Below, one piece after another: positions 3,243-13,095 of a DNA stretch of 13,124 nucleotides. The DNA lies in contig JASEIO010000041.1 in assembly GCA_030017475.1 (NCBI GenBank), forward strand, positions 1-13,124, written 5' to 3'. Origin of the DNA: a bacterium. Lineage in GTDB: Bacteria > UBA9089 > JASEIO01. Numbering within the stretch: the stretch's first letter is position 1; each line of letters opens with the position of its first letter. The translations under genes and the position numbers were made by a program. The notes beneath the pieces were generated by a model. The model searched no databases and was not told the origin of the DNA. It saw nothing but the letters and a program-made list of their open reading frames with translations.

Positions 3243-4349
3243 TTAGAAAATTGCACACCCAATCTCGGATAACCTCCTTCCCTGTTCTATCCAACCTCCT
3301 CCCAAAACCAAATCATCTTGATAAAAAACTACCGCTTGGCCAGGTGTAATTGAAGGTTGAGGGCTATCAAATCTAACCTTGGCCTTCCCATGAGATAATG
3401 GAAATATCTTAGCAGGAGATTCCTTATGGGAATATCTAATCTTCGCCTTAGCGGTGATTGGCTCATTGGAAGGTTCCCAAGCTATCCAGTTTACATGGGA
3501 GGCGATGAGTTCATTCTGGAAGAGATCCTCTTTATCTCCCACAATCACTGCATTTCTGTCTCTATCAATCTTGATGGTATAGAGTGGTTTGCCATGAACT
3601 ATCCCAAGGCCTTTTCGCTGGCCAATGGTATAATTCTGAATTCCGTGATGTTCTCCCAAGACCTTATCCTGGTTATCCATTATAGGGCCATGTTTCTCTT
3701 GGACTCCTCTACCTTTTAAGAACCTGCGGTAGTCATTATCATGGATAAAACATATCTCTTGTGATTCAGGCTTATCGTACACCTTTAGTCCTAAATCCTG
3801 TGCAATCTTTCTGACGTCTGTTTTTGTAAACTCCCCCAAAGGGAAAAGTATGTATTTTAATTGCTCCTGTCGGAGACTGAACAACACATAAGACTGATCC
3901 TTTCTTGAATCTACTCCCTTCTTTAAGAGGTAATGTCCGTTCTCTTCATCATATTCTACTCTTGCATAATGTCCTGTAGCCACATAATCTGCCTTTAACT
4001 CTTTGGCCTTTTTTAAAAGAGTACCAAACTTTATCCTTTCATTACATCTTATACATGGATTTGGCGTTCTACCATGTAGGTATTCCTCAAGGAAGTAATT
4101 AACTACTTCCTTCTCAAACTCTTCTTTAAGATCAAAGATAAAATGCGAAATACCCAACCTTTCTGCTGCATCCCTTGCATCTTCAAATGCTTGCAAAGAA
4201 CAACAAGTACGAGGATTATCGATCTGGCAACTTGACCGGAATAGATCCATAGTTATACCTATTACTTCGTAGCCACTCTTTAGCAAAAGATATGCAGCAA
4301 CGTTTGAGTCCACTCCTCCACTCATAGCCACTACCACCCTTTTCTTCAT
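3243..4349 (-). CDS. mnmA: tRNA-specific 2-thiouridylase MnmA, three-cysteine type
   Basis: It adenylates and thiolates U34 of tRNAs for Lys, Glu and Gln to give s2U. The 368-aa protein has the PP-loop SGGVDS (10-15), 'RTPNPCIRCN' (94-103), 'ATGHYAR' (124-130), 'DSRKDQSYVLFSL' (147-159) and Cys200 in 'ESQEICFI'. From memory of the E. coli enzyme, the position before ILC102 is Asp99; here it is Cys99, giving Cys99, Cys102 and Cys200. This fits the form of the family in which three cysteines can hold an Fe-S cluster. Extra cysteines occur at 41, 49 and 50. Start choice: ATG at 4349 lies 6 nt after GAGGAG, whereas a GTG one codon upstream would sit only 3 nt from it. It is the last gene of the minus-strand sulfur cluster, 89 nt after SepCysS, so it may share that transcript; no good separate promoter was seen. 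Confidence 0.96.
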   Translation of the reverse strand: MKKRVVVAMSGGVDSNVAAYLLLKSGYEVIGITMDLFRSSCQIDNPRTCCSLQAFEDARDAAERLGISHFIFDLKEEFEKEVVNYFLEEYLHGRTPNPCIRCNERIKFGTLLKKAKELKADYVATGHYARVEYDEENGHYLLKKGVDSRKDQSYVLFSLRQEQLKYILFPLGEFTKTDVRKIAQDLGLKVYDKPESQEICFIHDNDYRRFLKGRGVQEKHGPIMDNQDKVLGEHHGIQNYTIGQRKGLGIVHGKPLYTIKIDRDRNAVIVGDKEDLFQNELIASHVNWIAWEPSNEPITAKAKIRYSHKESPAKIFPLSHGKAKVRFDSPQPSITPGQAVVFYQDDLVLGGGWIEQGRRLSEIGCAIF

Positions 4350-4438
4350 CACTTACTCCTCTTCACAATGAAAGTCTCTTTGGTCTAAGTCAGATGTGCT
4401 GCTTCTGTAAGTTCGCAACCTCAGTTTGCTTGCATGTA

Positions 4439-5563
4439 CTAACCACTAAATTTTTTAACGATTTCCTCAAACGCTTCATATAAATATTTAACCTGGTCCC
4501 AGGTAAGTCCATAGGTGGATAACTTAAACCAATCTGTCTGGCCAGGTTTCAATCCAATTATTCCCCTTTTTTCAAGTTCATAATAAAGGAAATATCCCTT
4601 CTTGCGGTGATGTTTTCCAATCTCCCTTAAAAGAGGTGTCTCAAACCTCAATAGGTCATGTTGGGTAGGTCTTACCCCAAGTTGGGTTATATTACCCAAA
4701 CCCTCCATTCTATCCACAAACCATCTTGCCTTCTCTACCTCTTCATCCCACTTCTTGACCCTCTCTTTTACATAGGGAAGGGCAGCTATTAAGGTAGCCA
4801 CAGCTAGAGATCTTGCAGTACATCCCAAAAGTTCAACATCTTTCTTCTTATAAACTTGGGATTTCCTAAATAGCTCATTTACCCATCTATTAGTTGTTGC
4901 CAATATTCCAATTGCTCCTGGGACCCCAAAGCCCTTATGGCAAGAGCAGACCAAAAAGTCAGCCCCTAATTCCTTACCTTTTACCTCCATCCTCCCTGCG
5001 GTATAGGCTGCATTTAGAAGAAACGGAACATCATACTCCTTACAGATCTCCCCTATCTCTTTTGCTGGGGTTAAATTACCGTACTCACCATCAACATGAG
5101 TAAGAATGGCAAGTTTAGGTGGTTTATTAGTTTCTGACCTTATCTTTTCAATCATCTCACGATAGCCTTCCGGTCTTATTTCGTAACTTGGATATCCTGT
5201 TGATTCTACCTCATAAATTTTAGCCCCTACACGTTCTGCTGCTACATAGGTTGTATAATGACGGTTGGAATCACATACGATTGTATCTCCAGGCTGAAGC
5301 AAGGTATGTATCACTGCAAACTTACCCTCCCTTGCTCCTAAGGTAATCCTTGACTCATCCATATCCAAGAAGCGAGAAAGCTCCCGAGTCAAATCGCAAA
5401 TTGGTGGTTTCTCTATCAAATGGAGCATCCCTTTACAATAATCACAGACTGAATACCCATCAACATACTGCAATGCTACCTTCCTAACCTCTGAATTTGT
5501 CCTACCACCTGTCTGTAAAGGATTTACGTTTATATAGTATTCTTCCCTCTTTCTTTCAATCAT
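4439..5563 (-). CDS. pscS: O-phospho-L-seryl-tRNA:Cys-tRNA synthase (SepCysS)
   Basis: This PLP enzyme converts phosphoserine attached to tRNA(Cys) into cysteine with a sulfur donor. Together with SepRS it makes Cys-tRNA and cysteine in many methanogens. The 374-aa protein shows 'INVNPLQTGGRTNSEVR' (11-27), 'DGYSVCDYC' (35-43), 'EKPPI' (51-55), 'GAREGKFAV' (76-84), an aspartate/histidine segment 'THVDGEYGN' (155-163), and the PLP lysine in 'CSCHKGFG' (Lys210). Cys40, Cys43 and Cys248 match by position and context the three essential cysteines of the Archaeoglobus enzyme (39, 42, 247), which carry persulfide or an Fe-S cluster. The ATG at 5563 follows a strong GGAGGAG by about 7 nt; a longer reading from 5605 would overlap the upstream gene by 50 nt and is not preferred. 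It overlaps the preceding small gene by 8 nt. SepRS is not in the window. A free-phosphoserine or other PLP role cannot be excluded without it. Confidence 0.92.
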   Translation of the reverse strand: MIERKREEYYINVNPLQTGGRTNSEVRKVALQYVDGYSVCDYCKGMLHLIEKPPICDLTRELSRFLDMDESRITLGAREGKFAVIHTLLQPGDTIVCDSNRHYTTYVAAERVGAKIYEVESTGYPSYEIRPEGYREMIEKIRSETNKPPKLAILTHVDGEYGNLTPAKEIGEICKEYDVPFLLNAAYTAGRMEVKGKELGADFLVCSCHKGFGVPGAIGILATTNRWVNELFRKSQVYKKKDVELLGCTARSLAVATLIAALPYVKERVKKWDEEVEKARWFVDRMEGLGNITQLGVRPTQHDLLRFETPLLREIGKHHRKKGYFLYYELEKRGIIGLKPGQTDWFKLSTYGLTWDQVKYLYEAFEEIVKKFSG

Positions 5564-5735
5564 ATATAGCCTCCTCCATCCTTTTAAGTATCTTATTTGC
5601 ATCAAGGATTATGGATAATACCTTTTCTTTCTGTTCAGGTGAAAGGGTATGAGTTGGGGAGGTCTCTCTCCAAATATCTCGTAAATCCTCCATCAATTCT
5701 ATTATAGCAAATGTTCTATCTACATTCTCTTTCAT
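5556..5735 (-). CDS. small helical protein, candidate truncated SepCysE-like scaffold
   Basis: This 59-aa protein is predominantly charged and probably all-helical. An N-terminal helix (about residues 3-21) is followed by a Ser/Pro/Thr-rich turn and a second helix (about 35-57) ending EEAIYD. There are no cysteines, signal peptide or membrane segment. A GTG two codons upstream exists, but AAGGAAG is spaced about 7 nt from the ATG at 5735 and only 1 nt from the GTG. The gene fits exactly between the NIL-ferredoxin gene (11-nt gap) and SepCysS (8-nt overlap), and carries the SepCysS ribosome-binding site, so it is clearly translated with it. Published surveys report that C-terminally truncated homologs of SepCysE, the protein that joins SepRS and SepCysS, are fused or genetically coupled to SepCysS. 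Position, size and helical character fit that, but I identify it by context, not by recognised sequence. Confidence 0.7.
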   Translation of the reverse strand: MKENVDRTFAIIELMEDLRDIWRETSPTHTLSPEQKEKVLSIILDANKILKRMEEAIYD

Positions 5736-5746
5736 ATTCACTTCCT

Positions 5747-6154
5747 TTAGAATTGGATCCTTATTGCCTTATAAGGACATATCTTTACACATTGTTCGCA
5801 AAGGATACATTTTTCTTTGTCAAATGTAACCTCCATTATGCCTCTATCAACATCGAATGCACCAACTGGACATAGAGATACACAATATGTACAATGGGTA
5901 CATCTATCTTCTTGGAAGTTTATATCCTGGGCCAAAGGAGTTACCCTAATCCCAATATCCTTAAGATAATCCATCCCTTTATCTAAAGACTTTTTCTTAC
6001 CACTCACCTCAATTACTAATCGCCCCTCTTCCCGTGGTGTGACCTTTGCCTTTAGGATGTTCACCTCTAAGTCATAATCACGGATCAATCTGCAAGTAAC
6101 TGGTTGTTCCACAAGCCACTTTGGAAAATCTAAAACCACACGTATGCGAGCCAT
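5747..6154 (-). CDS. NIL-domain ferredoxin, homocysteine biosynthesis partner (MA1822-like)
   Basis: The 135-aa protein has an N-terminal NIL domain (about 1-75, an ACT-like fold often found in methionine-related proteins) followed by two 4Fe-4S motifs: [12 protein letters not shown] (Cys85, 88, 91, 95) and [12 protein letters not shown] (Cys116, 119, 122, 126). Together with a DUF39 protein, such NIL-Fer proteins (MA1822 with MA1821 in Methanosarcina acetivorans) are needed to make homocysteine from aspartate semialdehyde and sulfide, presumably by supplying electrons. The start ATG at 6154 follows GGAG by 6 nt; a longer reading from 6211 would run 44 nt into the DUF39 gene and adds a non-family N-terminus. 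It lies 13 nt after the DUF39 stop and 11 nt before the small gene upstream of SepCysS. The DUF39 neighbour makes the specific role likely. Confidence 0.9.
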
Positions 6155-6167
6155 AAGAGTCTCCTTT

Positions 6168-7367
6168 CTACCTCCTCTCAACCAAGGGGCGGAATTTGTA
6201 CCCAGATTCATGTCCTGGAAAGGGTGCTACTGGTTGAGTCAATAAAAATTTACCTTTCAAGATCCAATCCTTTAAGATACCTGCTATCTCTCGTGCCTTG
6301 GCATAACTTGAAAGTCCGGATGTCTTGATCTCCTTTCCTTGAACCACTATCTTTCCACTCTTTAAGTCTTTATAGTTTACCTCTCCTAAAACCTCTCCTT
6401 TTCCATACGGATAGGCCTCGCTATAATCAACTACTGGGGCATATATATCCTCATCCCGAATCAGGGTGTATTCCAAAATCTCCTCATTCAGGATTGGTAT
6501 AGGAACACCAATGCCGACTGCTAATGTCACACCATACCCATACATTGATACACCACGTAGGAATTCTCGATTCATTTGTTTAAGATCACCACATACTGCA
6601 AGGGTTCCTGCTGGGCACCGTGGTACTCCCTTATCTGTTCGTGGAACCCCTGGATTGTGCTGAGTCCCCCAGAAATAGACATATCCTATGCCTCCACCAA
6701 GGAAGATACGTGTGCCAATACCAATCGTCTTATATAAAGGATCATTAAGGAGAGGAGAAAGTTGACCCGAAGAACAATATGTGGCATTTGCCATGTTTGG
6801 ATGAAGGAGCCCCATATAGGTATAGATGGTCTTTCCTGACGTATTCACAGCAACATTATAGTTTTGGTAGGCATTTCTTGGATTAAGGAGCACTGCCTCA
6901 TTTATATCTTTGATATTTATCAATGTCTCTAAGGTCCTTCTTGGATAACAATCTGTCCCATAAGCTGAAACTACTAATCTTACATCTTTACCACTAACCA
7001 AATCCTCAATAACATGACCACCACCATAGCGGAATTCTCCAGGGTGAATCTTATTCCTTGGATCATCGTCTGGTAAGGCTGTTGCACCTATATAAATGTC
7101 CATTGCAGCAATACCAGTGTAAACAGGTACATCATTCAGATATGCCCTTCCTCCACCAATCTTTATCTTAGGCTTTGTATGGCCAATATTGAAATACGCC
7201 CCACTCGAGCACATAGGACCAAAGGTAGCTGTTGTTACTACATCTACTTCTTCTACTATCTTTTTAACCCCCTTTTCCTCTTTCAAATCAATTATCTCTT
7301 CTGCAGTAACAACAACAGCCTCTCCTTTTTTAATCCGTTCGTTGATCTCTGAGATTGTCTTTGGCAT
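6168..7367 (-). CDS. DUF39 homocysteine biosynthesis protein (MA1821-like)
   Basis: DUF39 proteins, with a NIL-ferredoxin partner, carry out sulfide-dependent conversion of aspartate semialdehyde to homocysteine in methanogens and several anaerobic bacteria, bypassing MetB/MetY routes. The 399-aa protein is a single DUF39 domain without the C-terminal CBS pair found in MA1821. Cys53 in '[12 protein letters not shown]' and Cys140 in 'YGTDCYPR' lie in highly conserved contexts and probably correspond to the two cysteines reported to be important in the Methanosarcina protein. Glycine-rich stretches '[11 protein letters not shown]' (69-79) and '[21 protein letters not shown]' (in two halves, around 222-242) are also family-like. 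Translation is coupled to larE through TAATG (stop and start share one base), and AAGGGG lies about 10 nt before the ATG. The partner NIL-Fer gene follows at once. Confidence is high for the family and good for the role. Confidence 0.93.
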
Positions 7368-8203
7368 TAGGAACTAACCCCTTTCTCTTTAAGCTTAATG
7401 TCCATACTCCCTCTTCTATACCCTTCTAAATCAATAGTTATATAGGTATATCCTAACTCTTTAAGCCGGGAGACTATCTTTTCATTCAATCCCCTTTCAA
7501 AAACCCATGGTATCTCATTCCGATTTAACTCTATCCTGGCAAGATCTCCATAGTGCCTGACCCTTACCTGTCTAAGGCCTAATTCATGGATAAGGCGTTC
7601 TGCCTCATCTATCATCTGAAGAGCCTCTAAGGTAATCTTTACCCCATATGGAATTCGAGATACGAGGCATGTGAATGGGGGTTTATCCCATGTCGAAAGG
7701 TCCATCTCTCTTGATATGTAGCGAATCTCCCCCTTTGTAAGTATAGCGTCTTTAAGAGGGCTTCTTATCTTCAGTTCTTCCAATGCCTTTATACCTGGTC
7801 TGAAGTCAGATACATCGTCATAATTTGTTCCCTCAATAACATACCTTAATCCCTCATCTTTAGCCAAATCAAGTAGATTTTGGAATATCTCCCTTTTACA
7901 CAGATAACATCTATTTTCTGAATTATTTACAAACCCAGGAACTTCAAGTATCTTCATATCTATTACTTTATGGCGAAGAATATCGAGGTTTCTTGCCAGA
8001 TTTACTGCCTTCTTTATCCTCTTCTTTGGATAGGTCTCTGTCCCAACAGTTACAGCAAGACATCTATCTTTCAATACATCATTTGCTACTTTAAGTAAAA
8101 GGGTGGAATCTACACCACCAGAATATGCAAGGAGTACACTCTCCATATTTAGCAGAATCTTACGCAATCTTTTTATCTTTTTATCAATTGAAGTTCTATA
8201 CAT
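7367..8203 (-). CDS. larE: LarE-family ATP-dependent sulfur transferase (PP-loop)
   Basis: LarE enzymes adenylate a substrate through a PP-loop and insert sulfur, taken in the Lactobacillus plantarum enzyme from its own Cys176 to form the nickel-pincer cofactor. The 278-aa protein has the PP-loop SGGVDS (28-33), 'NRCYLCKREIF' (Cys99, Cys102), 'EGTNYDDVSDFRPG' (124-137) and 'FTCLVSRIPYG', in which Cys179 occupies the place of the sacrificial cysteine. Only one cysteine is seen in that region, so the three-Cys Fe-S cluster type of LarE is not obvious. No larA, larB or larC is nearby, so cofactor synthesis for lactate racemase is not supported by context; being coupled to DUF39 by TAATG suggests a role in sulfide or sulfur delivery (inference). 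The ATG at 8203 has only a weak Shine-Dalgarno. Upstream codons in frame contain no better start. Confidence 0.85.
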   Translation of the reverse strand: MYRTSIDKKIKRLRKILLNMESVLLAYSGGVDSTLLLKVANDVLKDRCLAVTVGTETYPKKRIKKAVNLARNLDILRHKVIDMKILEVPGFVNNSENRCYLCKREIFQNLLDLAKDEGLRYVIEGTNYDDVSDFRPGIKALEELKIRSPLKDAILTKGEIRYISREMDLSTWDKPPFTCLVSRIPYGVKITLEALQMIDEAERLIHELGLRQVRVRHYGDLARIELNRNEIPWVFERGLNEKIVSRLKELGYTYITIDLEGYRRGSMDIKLKEKGVSS

Positions 8204-8254
8204 TGCTGGTACAATCCCACCCTTTCTAATCCTTTCACCTACTCAAGCTGAACT

Positions 8255-9031
8255 TCACTCGTTCTTTTGTAATATCATCTTAGCTACCTTCTTCCCAGAT
8301 AATAGCATCCCACCAAATATCGGTCCCATCCTTGGACCACCAAATACAGCATTTGATGCCATCCCAGCTACATAAACCCCTGGATAGATCTCCTTGGTAT
8401 TCTCCACTATCATCCTTTCTCCAACCTCAGCCCACATGGGTCGCTCCCCAAGAAAATCGCCAGTTGAAGTAAGTAGTTTTTTACCAATCTTTCTCACGAT
8501 TATATGAGCCACCTCGGCACCATGGCCTGTGGCGTCTATAACATATCTTGATCTCATAGTCAAGGGATCGATATGGAGATGGGCTTCTCCGATAGCACTC
8601 CAGTTTAGGACAAGACCAGTTACCTTCTCCTCTCTAATCATCACATCCTCTACCGAGATGAGGTTGAAGATCTTTGCCCCAGCTTTGATTGTTCCATCAC
8701 AGATAGAAGAGATGGTCTCTAAGGAATCAGTAATGAAATAACCACCTTGGTACTCCTCACATCTTACTCCAAACTCATCAAGGATTGGCTTTGAGGCCTC
8801 CTGAAATACACACTTATTATACATCATCCCTCCACCCCACATACCACCACCAACTGCAAGCTTTCGTTCAAAGATGACCACTTTCTTCCCTTCCTTTGCC
8901 AAATAATACCCAGCAGTCATCCCTGCTGGACCAGCACCCGAAATGGCAACATCAGCTTCCATATAATTCACAAAATCCCGGTAGAAACCTTCCACTATCG
9001 CCTTGGAAATGACTATGTCATCCAACTTCAT
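8255..9031 (-). CDS. thi4: sulfide-dependent ADP-thiazole synthase (Thi4 family, His type)
   Basis: Thi4 makes the thiazole half of thiamine from NAD, glycine and sulfur using Fe(II). The 258-aa length matches archaeal Thi4. The Rossmann motif GAGPAG (32-37), 'ERKLAVGGGMWGGGMMYNK' (55-73), 'VIDATGHGAEV' near 163-173 and the C-terminal 'VYVAGMASNAVFGGPRMGPIFG' block (about 221-242) are all family signatures. At the position of the yeast suicide cysteine (Cys205, before MDP) this protein has His153 in 'LHIDP', as in methanogen enzymes that use free sulfide catalytically. The related ribose-1,5-bisphosphate isomerase of archaea belongs to another family, although some Thi4 entries carry that old name. 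The ATG at 9031 follows GGAGG by 7 nt. The 79-nt gap before it holds no THI-box riboswitch that I can recognise. Context with Fe-S and sulfur genes fits a sulfide-fed enzyme. Confidence 0.93.
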   Translation of the reverse strand: MKLDDIVISKAIVEGFYRDFVNYMEADVAISGAGPAGMTAGYYLAKEGKKVVIFERKLAVGGGMWGGGMMYNKCVFQEASKPILDEFGVRCEEYQGGYFITDSLETISSICDGTIKAGAKIFNLISVEDVMIREEKVTGLVLNWSAIGEAHLHIDPLTMRSRYVIDATGHGAEVAHIIVRKIGKKLLTSTGDFLGERPMWAEVGERMIVENTKEIYPGVYVAGMASNAVFGGPRMGPIFGGMLLSGKKVAKMILQKNE

Positions 9032-9110
9032 AAATCGACCTCCTTTTCAGATCCTTAGATTTTTAGAGAATCTATCTCTTATAATTCCATCCTGAAGAAT
9101 AGATACTGCC

Positions 9111-9413
9111 TTAGAATGTTCTTGCATCTGTAGGACATTCCTCCACGCACCTTCTACACCTAATACAAAATTCTGGAAGGGAACAAGTCTTACCATCACC
9201 TATTGCAACCTTTATATCCATTTTATCCTTTGGTATCTCAGCTATCACAGAGAATACTCCTTCGAGCACTGGTTCTTTCACAAGTGAAATTACATCCTTT
9301 ACTGGGCATATCTTGACACAAACACTACAACCTATGCATAAATCCTCATTTGTCTTAGGGACTTTTGGCTCAGTGGGAACTTTTAGCACTTTATGGATTA
9401 CCAAATCCTTCAC
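9111..9413 (-). CDS. nine-cysteine 4Fe-4S dicluster ferredoxin-like protein
   Basis: This 100-aa protein has two Fe-S motifs separated by a beta-rich spacer of about 40 residues. Cluster 1 is CIGCSVCVKICP (Cys26, 29, 32, 36). Cluster 2 is CIRCRRCVEECP (Cys83, 86, 89, 93), preceded by one extra cysteine, Cys77. The basic N-terminus (KVLKVPTEPKVPK) and the long spacer differ from simple bacterial 2[4Fe-4S] ferredoxins and recall electron-transfer subunits. The start is GTG; AGGTGA lies 6 nt upstream and overlaps the sufB stop codon, so its translation is tied to sufB. Electron donor or sulfur-transfer roles for the SufBC scaffold, Thi4 or DUF39 are all possible; none is shown. No exact family name was recognised. 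Confidence 0.85.
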   Translation of the reverse strand: MKDLVIHKVLKVPTEPKVPKTNEDLCIGCSVCVKICPVKDVISLVKEPVLEGVFSVIAEIPKDKMDIKVAIGDGKTCSLPEFCIRCRRCVEECPTDARTF

Positions 9414-9424
9414 CTGGAATCACC

Positions 9425-10777
9425 TCATAAAACCCTTTTTAGGCTTGTAGAGATTACCTTATCTATCTCGTGGCGCAAAAGGGGTGGAAAACCAGGGGTT
9501 TCGACATCTAAGAAACCTCGGGCTATCATTGATGTTGCCTCGTTTTCAGTTAGCCCTCTCGACATCAAATAGTAGAGTTCCTCATCGGCAATCTTTCCAA
9601 TAGCAGCTTCATGAGTTAGGTCTGCCTCTGGGGATATGCTTCTTAACTGAGGATAAGCCCATGCCTGTGCTAAAGGACTTAGCAATAAACCCCTACACTC
9701 TAAGTGCCCTTTCGTCCGTTTTGCATAACTCTTCAAGTTTCCCCGCATCTTGATTTTCGATTCATCAGTAGCAACTGCACGGGAAATTAGCTCTGCCCTT
9801 GTACCTTCATTAGAGAATATGATAGCGGAGCCGACATCGATTGAAGATTGCTCCACTCCAAGAATGATGCATCGTATTACAGCCTTTGCACCTTCTCCAC
9901 GTAATACTGCTGTTGGATAAGCCTGGTCACTCTTGCAGGGACCAATTATTATGAGGTTTTCTATATAGGTTGCATCTTTCTCAACTATGGCACCAATCTT
10001 TGGTCTGACGTGAAATTCTGGTCCAAAATTATGGATCATTGAATAAGTCACCTCGGCACCTTCTCCTACATATATCTCTGTAATACAGCCATGCAAACCT
10101 GCATTGCACCCAGATTGTGTAAGGCAACCAGATATCAGATGAAGCCTTGAGTGAGGTTCTGCTATTACAAGAATTCGAGGGAGTTGTGCATACATCTGTG
10201 TCTCAACAAAGAAACAGATCTGTAAGGGTAACTCAACCTTCACCCCCTGCTTAACCCAGACAAAGACCCCTCCCCTTGAATAACCAGCATTGTATGCAGT
10301 ATACTTATCAAGATTGATCGGGTAGATATGTGACCAAAGTTTCTCAATCCATGAATATCCTAAGACAGCATCCTCAATATCTTCTACAATCAACCCATCT
10401 GGATACCTTGAAAAGAGTGTCTGCTTTGCCTTTGAAGTAACCGAAAGGTAGGTTGTGGTAGCATCCTCTTGGAGCCTTGTTCCAGTTCTATCGTGCTCCG
10501 AGATTGACTGACCAGCCGATTCTGCTCGTCTTTTCATATCCTCCGAAAGTTCATCCAAACTTCTCCGAGGTGGGTGTTCTTTGCCAATATCTGGGCGGTA
10601 TGCCAGTAGGTCAAAATCAACCCCGAACCGGCAAGCAGGAAACCCCCGCTCTTCATAATCTAAGTATATCTCTCTTGCAAGGGAACGGCTCTTCTTGAGC
10701 CATGCAGGAAATTTCTTGTCATACTCTTCATATACATTCCCTAATTCCCTAATTACTTCCCGTTTCCTTTCATCCAT
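9425..10777 (-). CDS. sufB: SufB-type Fe-S cluster scaffold subunit (SmsB-like)
   Basis: SufB binds SufC and builds Fe-S clusters for transfer to apoproteins. The 450-aa protein has an N-terminal helical region, 'EDIEDAVLGYSWIEKLWS' near 132-149, the beta-helix core (about 170-370) and the C-terminal motif 'HEAAIGKIADEELYYLMSRGLTENEA', covering 389-414. His389/Glu390 match E. coli His433/Glu434, and Cys361 in 'LECRGLL' lies 29 residues before Glu390, exactly the Cys405-Glu434 distance of E. coli, so the catalytic set appears complete. Together with sufC alone, without sufD, sufS, sufE or sufU, this matches the minimal two-gene SmsCB systems of archaea and anaerobic bacteria; residue choice between SufB and SmsB needs a tree. 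The ATG overlaps the sufC stop by 8 nt (ATGGATGA), 9 nt after AAGGAGG. Confidence 0.93.
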   Translation of the reverse strand: MDERKREVIRELGNVYEEYDKKFPAWLKKSRSLAREIYLDYEERGFPACRFGVDFDLLAYRPDIGKEHPPRRSLDELSEDMKRRAESAGQSISEHDRTGTRLQEDATTTYLSVTSKAKQTLFSRYPDGLIVEDIEDAVLGYSWIEKLWSHIYPINLDKYTAYNAGYSRGGVFVWVKQGVKVELPLQICFFVETQMYAQLPRILVIAEPHSRLHLISGCLTQSGCNAGLHGCITEIYVGEGAEVTYSMIHNFGPEFHVRPKIGAIVEKDATYIENLIIIGPCKSDQAYPTAVLRGEGAKAVIRCIILGVEQSSIDVGSAIIFSNEGTRAELISRAVATDESKIKMRGNLKSYAKRTKGHLECRGLLLSPLAQAWAYPQLRSISPEADLTHEAAIGKIADEELYYLMSRGLTENEATSMIARGFLDVETPGFPPLLRHEIDKVISTSLKRVL

Positions 10778-11552
10778 ATTTTTCTACCTCCTTAACCCTT
10801 TCACATACCTGTAACCTTTCTATAAATCCTTCATAACCAACTGATTCAATACATGGTATTAAACAATCCGGATCTCCTCGATCAACAATCCTTCCATCAT
10901 ACATTATGTGGCATAAATTAGGCCTTAGGTATTGTAAGATATGACGGTGATGAGTTATGATCAATACCGCACACCCCTCCTCTTTTTGGAATTCATCGAT
11001 CTCTTTCCCTATTAATTTTAAAGAGTCAATATCAACTCCAGAATCAGGTTCATCCAGGATCATTAGATCTGGTCTTTGGGCAAATAATTGAGCAAGCTCT
11101 GAGCGCTTACGTTCCCCACCTGAGAAACCTAAATTTAAGTCGCGGGACAAGAATCGATCTACGGAAAGTCTAACCTTCTCTATATACCTACTTGCAATAC
11201 CTTCTTTTTCTTCTGTGGGATTCCAAGGTGGAGAGCCTGCAATTAATCGTAGAATATCCCTTAATTTTACCCCCCTTACCTCCGGTGGTGATTGATAAGC
11301 CATTCCGAGACCAAGACGAGCCCTCGAGGTTATATCATGTTTTCGTAAATCTATATCCTTGAAGCGAAGTTCGCCTTTAGTGATCTTATAGGTTGGATAG
11401 CCCATTATCGCTAAAGCAAGTGATGTTTTACCACATGCATTAGGACCCATCAATACATGAATCTCGCCTTTTGAGATATTGAGATCCACTCCCTTGATGA
11501 TTTCTCGCTTATCAACAGTAACCCGGAGACCTTTTATCTCTAATAGACTCAT
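10770..11552 (-). CDS. sufC: SufC/SmsC Fe-S assembly ATPase
   Basis: This soluble ABC ATPase drives conformational change of the SufB scaffold. The 260-aa protein shows Walker A GPNACGKT (36-43), Q-loop Gln87 ('YQSPPEVRG', characteristic of SufC), signature FSGGE (143-147) with the SufC-specific 'RKRSELAQL' after it, Walker B LMILDEPDSGVD (163-174) and the switch histidines (201-202). Walker A carries Cys40 where Ser, Gly or Ala is usual, which is unusual but should not abolish ATP binding. The ATG follows GGAGG by 8 nt. It is the first gene of the minus-strand sulfur cluster: upstream lie a leader of about 130 nt and a good promoter. It overlaps sufB by 8 nt. Confidence 0.95.
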   Translation of the reverse strand: MSLLEIKGLRVTVDKREIIKGVDLNISKGEIHVLMGPNACGKTSLALAIMGYPTYKITKGELRFKDIDLRKHDITSRARLGLGMAYQSPPEVRGVKLRDILRLIAGSPPWNPTEEKEGIASRYIEKVRLSVDRFLSRDLNLGFSGGERKRSELAQLFAQRPDLMILDEPDSGVDIDSLKLIGKEIDEFQKEEGCAVLIITHHRHILQYLRPNLCHIMYDGRIVDRGDPDCLIPCIESVGYEGFIERLQVCERVKEVEKYG

Positions 11553-11686: not shown

Positions 11687-11715
11687 CAGATATCATATAT
11701 TAATAATTTTGTCAA
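11687..11715 (-). promoter_or_regulatory. promoter of the sufC-headed sulfur operon
   Basis: On the minus strand the -35 TTGACA (11715-11710) is followed after 17 nt by TATCTG (11692-11687), preceded by TGA so that it reads as an extended -10 (TGnTATCTG). The -10 alone is weak, but the perfect -35, spacing and extension make a credible promoter. Transcription would begin near 11680 and give a leader of about 128 nt. The -35 lies inside the 3' end of the decayed toxin gene, so the intact toxin, if ever present, would have overlapped it. Confidence 0.6.
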
Positions 11716-11974
11716 GTATTATCCAAAAAATTTCGACCTGTACGGATTTGGATAGGACACTATTAGAATCAAAACAGAAGGCGGAAGTTAGACCAAACCG
11801 GTTCATGATGACAAAACTCGTACAGTCGGTAAAGCTCAATCGCTTATCATCATACTTTTTGAATAGTGTATAAGCCTCTTCTTCAATTTCTGAAGTGACA
11901 TGGTAGATATGATAAAGTGAACTGACCAGTATTTCATCTCTAAACCGACAGGCTGCTGAGTGACTAACATACAT
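11693..11974 (-). pseudogene. C-terminal remnant of a VapC-like PIN-domain toxin
   Basis: The open frame of 93 codons has, from about codon 10 to 70, the typical C-terminal half of a PIN-domain ribonuclease: 'FRDEILVSSLYHIYHVT', then 'EEEAYTLFKKYDDKRLSFTD' and 'CTSFVIMNRFGLTSAFCFDS'. The conserved acidic Asp50 (in FTDCTS) and Asp69 (in AFCFDS) are kept. The N-terminal half, with the first catalytic Asp and the Glu, is missing: an in-frame TGA stands just before the first Met and no upstream frame supplies it. The tail after residue 72 no longer fits the family. A truncated antitoxin start lies 33 nt upstream. VapC toxins cleave specific RNAs; this copy should be inactive. Confidence 0.75.
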
Positions 11975-12006
11975 CCGAATCGCTCAAGGCGATAAAAGCA
12001 GAGGTG

Positions 12007-12111
12007 TCAACTTAGTTGAGAGACACTTTTGCCTTCTTCAACAGCCTTGAATTTAAGGGCCTTAAGCTTTTCACGAGGAAGTCTGATGTTGGTAGCAACT
12101 AAATCTTGCAT
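12007..12111 (-). pseudogene. truncated ribbon-helix-helix (VapB-like) antitoxin
   Basis: From ATG at 12111 the sequence encodes 34 residues: a beta strand 'VATNIRLPREKLKALK' followed by 'FKAVEEGKSVSQLS' and TGA. This is the N-terminal DNA-binding part of an RHH antitoxin; intact relatives continue after 'SVSQL' with a second helix and a toxin-binding tail. GGTGATAAG precedes the start. Together with the PIN remnant downstream on the same strand it marks a vapBC locus that has lost its middle by deletion. Confidence 0.7.
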
Positions 12112-12129
12112 CTTATCACCTTCAATATT

Positions 12130-12315: not shown

Positions 12316-13095
12316 ATGAAAAAGATTGATATTGAGAAAGCAAAGTTCTTTACCAAGGTTATAGGTTCTTTAGCACTTCTCAAGCCCTTTATGGAGAAGA
12401 TGGGGATTCGTGAGATTATAGATAGGACTTGTCCTGCTGATCCACAGAAACTTTTATCCCATGGAGTTGTAATTGAATTAATGGGAGCAAATAGACTTTT
12501 ATCACCATCTCCTCTGTATGCTGTAGAAGACTGGGCGTATCAAAGTGGGGTAGAAGAAGTCTATAAGATTGACCCCGGACTTCTTAACGATGACCGTTTA
12601 GGAGATACCCTTGATGCTATACACGAGTACATTCCTGTACTAAAAGGAGAGATCTCCTTAGAGGTAGCTAAAAGATTTCAGATAGGATTAGAACACATTC
12701 ATTGGGATCTAACAAGTTTCTATTTTGAAGGTGATTATGAGAACCAGGAGGAACAATATATCAAAATTGTCTATGCAAAGACAAAAAAGAGTGAAATGGC
12801 CAGAAAATCGGCAAAAATAGGTATCAATATCGCTAATGATGGCAAAGGGCCTGTCCCTATATTCTATGAACCTTTAGATGGTAATGCGACAGGTTTTGAA
12901 GCAACTATCGAGAATATGGAGAATTTGAAGAAACATTTGAAGCTGGATCGACTCATCCGTATTAATGACAGAGGCTGTTTTAGCGAAAAGATAGTAGCCA
13001 AAACAAGAAGAATGGGATTTCATCTTATCTCAAGTATTGCATGGTCACCAACATACGAATCTATCTTAACCCAAGTTCATGACTTCAAAAAATAA
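12316..13095 (+). CDS. IS1634/IS4-like DDE transposase, truncated by an early stop
   Basis: The 259-aa frame matches the N-terminal and central part of IS1634-type transposases: 'LLNDDRLGDTLDAI' (89-102), the first catalytic Asp in 'HWDLTSFYFEG' (Asp131), and the second in 'INDRGCFS' (Asp218) before 'GFHLISSI'. These proteins are usually well above 400 aa, and the region with the catalytic Glu is absent. The TAA at 13093-13095 directly follows an A6 run (AAAAAAT). In the -1 frame the sequence continues open to the window end as ISSVKSMGYNF, and the +1 frame is also open, so a one-base indel or ribosomal frameshift is plausible. The ATG follows GGAGG at 6-7 nt, inside the hairpin just upstream. 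Family is confident, exact subgroup less so. Confidence 0.8.
   Translation: MKKIDIEKAKFFTKVIGSLALLKPFMEKMGIREIIDRTCPADPQKLLSHGVVIELMGANRLLSPSPLYAVEDWAYQSGVEEVYKIDPGLLNDDRLGDTLDAIHEYIPVLKGEISLEVAKRFQIGLEHIHWDLTSFYFEGDYENQEEQYIKIVYAKTKKSEMARKSAKIGINIANDGKGPVPIFYEPLDGNATGFEATIENMENLKKHLKLDRLIRINDRGCFSEKIVAKTRRMGFHLISSIAWSPTYESILTQVHDFKK

Follow-up and report, generated by a model that had tools for sequence, protein, structure and literature searches.

A probable sulfide-assimilation island of ten genes in a bacterium of the phylum UBA9089

From what source does an anaerobic bacterium draw the sulfur for its iron-sulfur (Fe-S) clusters, cysteine, homocysteine, thiazole and thiolated tRNA, when the genes for these tasks lie side by side and no cysteine desulfurase lies among them? 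The question is raised by a stretch of 13,124 nt (the window), which is the entire contig C47 of a draft genome of 1.64 Mb (98.5% complete) from a member of UBA9089. Between positions 3243 and 11552 the window carries ten genes, all on the minus strand, which were identified through open reading frames (ORFs) and profile matches. A reading made from the letters alone (the sequence-only reading) had described ten one-strand genes with short gaps or overlaps, among them a His-type Thi4, a three-Cys MnmA and a small partner protein, and all of these descriptions held. We consider it probable that the ten genes, a set mostly archaeal in style, serve an anaerobic bacterium as an island for sulfide assimilation, in which a cluster-building SmsCB pair is combined with enzymes that use sulfide; that these enzymes would draw on sulfide exclusively is inferred from the families to which they belong.

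The genes that the sequence-only reading had called SufC and SufB are SmsC and SmsB. SmsC (10770-11552), a SufC-like ATPase, scored 226 bits on TIGR01978, above the cut-off, and its residues 3-229 align with M. jannaschii SmsC (9h78_A, E 4e-48). Its C-terminal tail is Cys-rich, with 4 Cys within the last 50 residues in a pattern that differs from the C218/CxxC of M. jannaschii; tail Cys were seen in all phylum members examined. SmsB (9425-10777), a SufB-like scaffold partner, found its best NCBIfam match in the SmsB model NF052511 (233 bits, under that model's cut-off of 650) and scored 159 bits on PF01458. It is the sole member of the SufB/SufD family in the genome, so that the SmsC-SmsB pair stands there without SufD and without any IscU, NifU or SufU (SufE was not searched), and the scaffolds by which a SUF or ISC system would be recognized are lacking. 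The M. jannaschii SmsCB builds clusters from sulfide in vivo, in E. coli (PMC12192291); the pair described here would likewise use iron and inorganic sulfide to assemble [4Fe-4S] clusters, and would supply them to SepCysS, MnmA, LarE and both ferredoxins of the island. One of these, the 2x[4Fe-4S] ferredoxin at 9111-9413 (PF00037, two stretches), was not seen in the islands of relatives.

The enzymes that might consume sulfide carry the residues expected of such families. Thi4 (8255-9031; TIGR00292, 331 bits), whose best match in the Protein Data Bank (PDB) is 7rk0 (E 3.5e-87), has His153, within HLHIDP, at the position of the sacrificial Cys of the Arabidopsis enzyme (SCMDP), and methanogen Thi4 sequences have the same His at the aligned position. 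Non-Cys, His-type Thi4 enzymes use sulfide (PMC8454699), and this one is predicted to make thiamine thiazole from it. HcyBio (DUF39; 6168-7367; PF01837, 506 bits), a homocysteine synthase component with no second copy in the genome, has Cys53 and Cys140 that are invariant across 14 sequences, and it adjoins an MA1822-like protein with a NIL domain and 2x[4Fe-4S] ferredoxin motifs (5747-6154; PF09383 NIL, 59 bits, and Fer4), whose start was set at the ATG at 6154, with AAGGAG upstream. Homocysteine formation requires both DUF39 and NIL-ferredoxin (PMC5764234), which here would convert aspartate semialdehyde and sulfide to homocysteine. The LarE-type PP-loop sulfurtransferase (7367-8203; TIGR00268, 309 bits) contains SGGVDS and a CxxC...C set, in which RCYLCK and TCLVSR align with RCYNCK and TCMATR of 8cnz and which is kept in relatives, and the tRNA 2-thiouridylase MnmA (3243-4349; NF001138, 457 bits) contains RTCCS, PNPCIRCN and SQEICF, the CC-CxxC-C set of the C-type enzymes among the MnmA classes defined in PMC11784392. 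In T. maritima LarE, which has the three-Cys motif, the [4Fe-4S] cluster takes up an extra sulfide to become [4Fe-5S] (PMC9283937); three-cysteine clusters in MnmA and LarE could similarly carry extra sulfide to tRNA, as 2-thiouridine, or to a nicotinate-derived cofactor.

SepCysS (4439-5563; 374 aa from the ATG at 5563) scored 524 bits on TIGR02539 against a cut-off of 365, and Cys37, Cys40 and Cys245 (numbered along the aligned stretch) are invariant across 12 homologues. Its start is overlapped by 8 nt by a 59-aa ORF (5556-5735) that matches no model in Pfam. In five relatives and six Methanofastidiosa-type archaea, and also in the bacteria ADurb.Bin236, USMO, USCA, DeMMO6 and Dive96, SepCysS is immediately preceded by a homologous small ORF. 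A phmmer search of the PDB with the single protein returned PhoP-type chance matches only, and a family profile was needed: the profile of fifteen members had M. jannaschii SepCysE (MJ1481) as its top PDB match, at E 0.024. The AlphaFold model (two helices, mean pLDDT 95), aligned at its full length of 59 residues with SepCysE 42-100, kept almost the register of the profile alignment to MJ1481 and reached a Z of 7.8, a level that unrelated helix hairpins also attain (up to 8.6), and an identification from the structure match alone was therefore rejected. Taken together, the position before SepCysS, the profile match to MJ1481 and the end-to-end alignment of the model indicate that the protein most likely corresponds to the half of archaeal SepCysE that binds SepCysS, for which Mukai et al. 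(PMC5424206) use the name SepCysSn; in SepCysE it is the corresponding domain that binds the dimer of SepCysS (PMC5688128).

With SepRS encoded elsewhere in the genome (C89:47793-49265; 454 bits against a cut-off of 381) as an open frame of 491 aa, the branch that runs through SepCysS is complete. An in-frame TAG, which would have hinted at pyrrolysine, was dismissed, since it precedes the ATG and does not interrupt the 491-aa frame. SerC, a source of phosphoserine, is present, and a normal CysRS gene on C17 (572 bits) means that both charging routes exist in the genome. SepRS would charge tRNA-Cys with phosphoserine, and SepCysS, with SepCysSn as helper, would replace the phosphate by sulfur to yield Cys-tRNA as the sole visible source of new cysteine. 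Searches that the sequence-only reading had proposed, for SepRS and CysRS on the one hand and for CysK/CysM and MetY on the other, thus found both of the former and neither of the latter: no CysK/CysM match was obtained at E 0.001 in this genome, and MetY/MetB/MetZ were absent, the best match in any of 19 genomes sampled from the phylum (the window's genome and 18 further) being a generic PLP fold at 46 bits. De novo cysteine is most likely formed solely via SepRS/SepCysS, and homocysteine solely via HcyBio.

The absence of a cysteine desulfurase, claimed by the sequence-only reading, is true of the window and untrue of the genome, where one full-length gene of that family (C45:41556-42653; TIGR01977, 514 bits) keeps the catalytic loop RTGLHCAP. 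Because the genome encodes this protein as well as a normal CysRS, sulfide is not the sole conceivable donor in the species, and the sulfide-only wording was not supported. In a rival reading the genes are clustered and yet cysteine sulfur, released by the lone desulfurase, feeds the Fe-S scaffold, MnmA and LarE, leaving direct sulfide to SepCysS, HcyBio and Thi4. In favour of such a route, the SmsCB of Thermococcus kodakarensis works in vitro with a separately encoded desulfurase (PMC12442378). The proposed sulfide-fed island is weakened by the capacity that the desulfurase-family protein could have to feed SmsCB, MnmA or LarE, by the acceptance of sulfur from IscS by T. maritima LarE in vitro (PMC9283937) and by the fact that draft genomes can miss genes. 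We nevertheless consider a desulfurase feed unlikely: the genome offers the enzyme no IscU/SufU partner, and its gene adjoins moaA and an ArsA-type ATPase, away from the sms genes, which would be in keeping with a task in molybdenum cofactor synthesis or some other use. Moreover, a full cysteine desulfurase was undetected in 10 of the 19 genomes (G004, G005, G006, G009, G011, G012, G013, G016, G017 and G018), several of them 95-100% complete and most of them keeping island genes. Two of the ten encode IscU-like scaffolds (G013:C60:9974-10321 and G017:C222:9434-9781, the latter L349 4360).

CysRS was likewise missing in 10 of the 19 genomes, and all seven of these with completeness of at least 95% carry SepRS. 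The SepCysS-bearing genome G004 retains a CysRS remnant (G004:C185:473-720, L065 region), in which model positions 4-48 are followed directly by 429-465, apparently an internally deleted gene. Long SepRS frames also occur in G006 and G008, and the SepRS of G001 (L348 165-2087) carries, fused to its N terminus, the editing domain of archaeal ThrRS (PF08915, 114 bits).

The island is not confined to one genome. Six other families of the phylum have it too, in shuffled order, and because at least two of these gene families stand side by side in each of the six, their clustering is more than chance. The extended arrangements are Rrf2-SmsC-SmsB-Thi4-HcyBio-NIL-MnmA in G004, SepCysS-HcyBio-NIL-Thi4-SmsC in G012 and HcyBio-NIL-Thi4-LarE..MnmA in G006. 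The genes are divided between two neighbourhoods in G008 (Thi4-HcyBio-NIL-SepCysSn-SepCysS and Rrf2-SmsC-SmsB..LarE), G016 (HcyBio-NIL..Thi4-SmsC-SmsB and SepCysSn-SepCysS-MnmA), G017 (NIL-Thi4-SmsC-SmsB and SepCysSn-SepCysS-MnmA) and G018 (SepCysS..HcyBio and SmsC-SmsB-LarE), and shorter sets were found in G003 (SepCysSn-SepCysS-SmsC-SmsB) and G013 (SmsC-SmsB-LarE). In family f6, which has neither SepRS nor SepCysS, CysK occupies the SepCysS slot, as Rrf2-Thi4-HcyBio-NIL-CysK in G009 (L267 247-5161) and CysK-LarE-MnmA in G015 (L277 3980-7018). The sequence-only reading had suggested looking for the same gene order in relatives, and the neighbourhood proved to be conserved; it is a trait of the phylum and not of a single bacterium, with the SepRS/SepCysS part already published.

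In a quick tree the SepCysS proteins of the phylum form one group (support 99), outside which the divergent copies of G001, G007 and G010 fall, and this group sits within a set of bacteria and Methanofastidiosa (support 95). A plasmid origin was rejected, since in a tblastn search of plasmids with SepCysS the matches listed were all generic PLP enzymes, with identities of 24-26%. The divergent SepCysS of G007 (42% identity, with an 8-residue insertion) adjoins a ThiF/MoeB-like gene (L046 201-2128); HcyBio and SmsB are both absent from that genome, which may have a different sulfur carrier arrangement. The transfer that this tree makes likely, the shuffled order among families and the IS1634-type transposase and decayed toxin-antitoxin pair in the upstream flank could suggest a loose, chance collection of transferred archaeal genes with no common regulation or logic, but this is very improbable, as the same partners are met again in several families, even where CysK stands in for SepCysS, the overlaps SmsC/SmsB, LarE/HcyBio and SepCysSn/SepCysS are coupled, and the set is missing from the SepCysS loci of archaea and of other bacteria (the archaeal loci compared, many of them cut short by contig ends, showed none of it save single weak matches).

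Within the window, successive genes from SmsC to MnmA are spaced by -8, 11, 79, 51, -1, 13, 11, -8 and 89 nt, and a purine-rich ribosome-binding site precedes most of their starts. This spacing fits a single operon, in which the genes would be co-transcribed, and internal promoters would have room in three of the gaps, which measure 51-89 nt. Promoter-like sites were no more frequent in the window than in shuffles, terminator-like sites were not above chance in overall count and none fell inside an intergenic gap, and searches of the window for riboswitches with Rfam and for tRNAs with ARAGORN found none. Genes of the Rrf2 family are absent from the genome of the window. Seven relatives have one at the head of, or next to, the Thi4-HcyBio or SmsCB cluster (L264 8842-9318, L265 6790-7248, L266 2743-3186, L267 4703-5161, L270 7900-8328, L273 1188-1748 and L342 5249-5692); the encoded proteins score under the cut-offs of the IscR and CymR models, and their three Cys lie at intervals of about 8 and 5 residues.

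At one end the island is bordered by the convergent, ordinary bacterial housekeeping genes coaBC, gmk, remA and yicC, named from sequence, which mark the contig as bacterial. At the other, a decayed toxin-antitoxin-like pair (11690-12120) lies between smsC and the transposase and consists of an antitoxin-like start that runs into a stop (MQDLVATNIRLPREKLKALKFK...) and a PIN-like remnant whose frame is broken and which has no Pfam match. The contig ends in an IS1634/DUF4277-type transposase fragment (12316-13095; 88 bits against a cut-off of 100), probably the cause of the assembly break.

Reviews equate UBA9089 with Ca. Desantisbacteria (PMC10591310) and also list it under the name Ca. Omexiota, with sulfidic groundwater and springs as its habitat (PMC11382960). 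This published setting fits a sulfide island: members are reported to live in sulfidic groundwater and to carry genes for sulfate/sulfite reduction (PMC10591310, PMC11382960, PMC11484514). We tentatively extend the proposal, at somewhat less than an even chance, to the whole phylum, whose biosynthetic sulfur for Fe-S clusters, cysteine, homocysteine, thiazole and 2-thiouridine might come from sulfide through a single conserved set of genes, controlled in relatives by an IscR-like protein, with about half of the species lacking a desulfurase, about half lacking CysRS and coding cysteine via SepRS/SepCysS alone, and CysK and SepCysS serving as interchangeable plug-ins. Desulfurase-free, sulfide-fed Fe-S assembly and RNA-dependent cysteine formation have so far been studied mainly in methanogenic archaea; a bacterial phylum that has the complete set in one island, with natural losses of CysRS and desulfurase and with SepCysS/CysK exchange, lets one test by comparison why the archaeal route persists and whether bacteria can live without a cysteine desulfurase.

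Every island enzyme is of a known kind, and SepRS/SepCysS have been published in bacteria, 'Desantisbacteria-like' ones included (PMC8762117, PMC5424206). In the papers searched we found no report of the physical island, its phylum-wide spread, the CysK exchange or the absence of a desulfurase in many members; the island is a new arrangement of known parts. With the SepRS-SepCysS pathway of methanogens and some bacteria (PMC5424206, PMC8762117) it shares SepRS, a three-Cys SepCysS and SepCysSn directly before SepCysS, and with the published 'Desantisbacteria-like' bacteria (PMC8762117) the ThrRS editing domain on SepRS, here in the relative G001. Unlike in those systems, SepCysS lies apart from SepRS, inside an island for Fe-S clusters, homocysteine, thiazole and tRNA thiolation, and CysRS is also present. 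The SufC/SufB pair without SufD, its overlapping genes and the Cys-rich SmsC tail resemble the SMS (SmsCB) system (PMC12192291, PMC12442378), from which the present case differs in its bacterial host, in having the sole SufB/D of its genome, in being joined to sulfide-using biosynthesis genes and in a tail Cys spacing that is not that of M. jannaschii. As in the DUF39/NIL-ferredoxin pathway of methanogens and Desulfovibrio (PMC5764234), DUF39 adjoins NIL-ferredoxin and MetY/MetB are lacking, whereas here the pair is located with SepCysS or CysK; a COG2122 protein belongs to the known pathway as a partner of HcyBio. The closest parallel to the whole is the methanogen-type sulfur set of Chloroflexi (PMC5424206), in which the same families occur within one bacterial genome; there they were described as genome co-occurrence only, whereas in UBA9089 they are physically clustered and one family has CysK in place of SepCysS.

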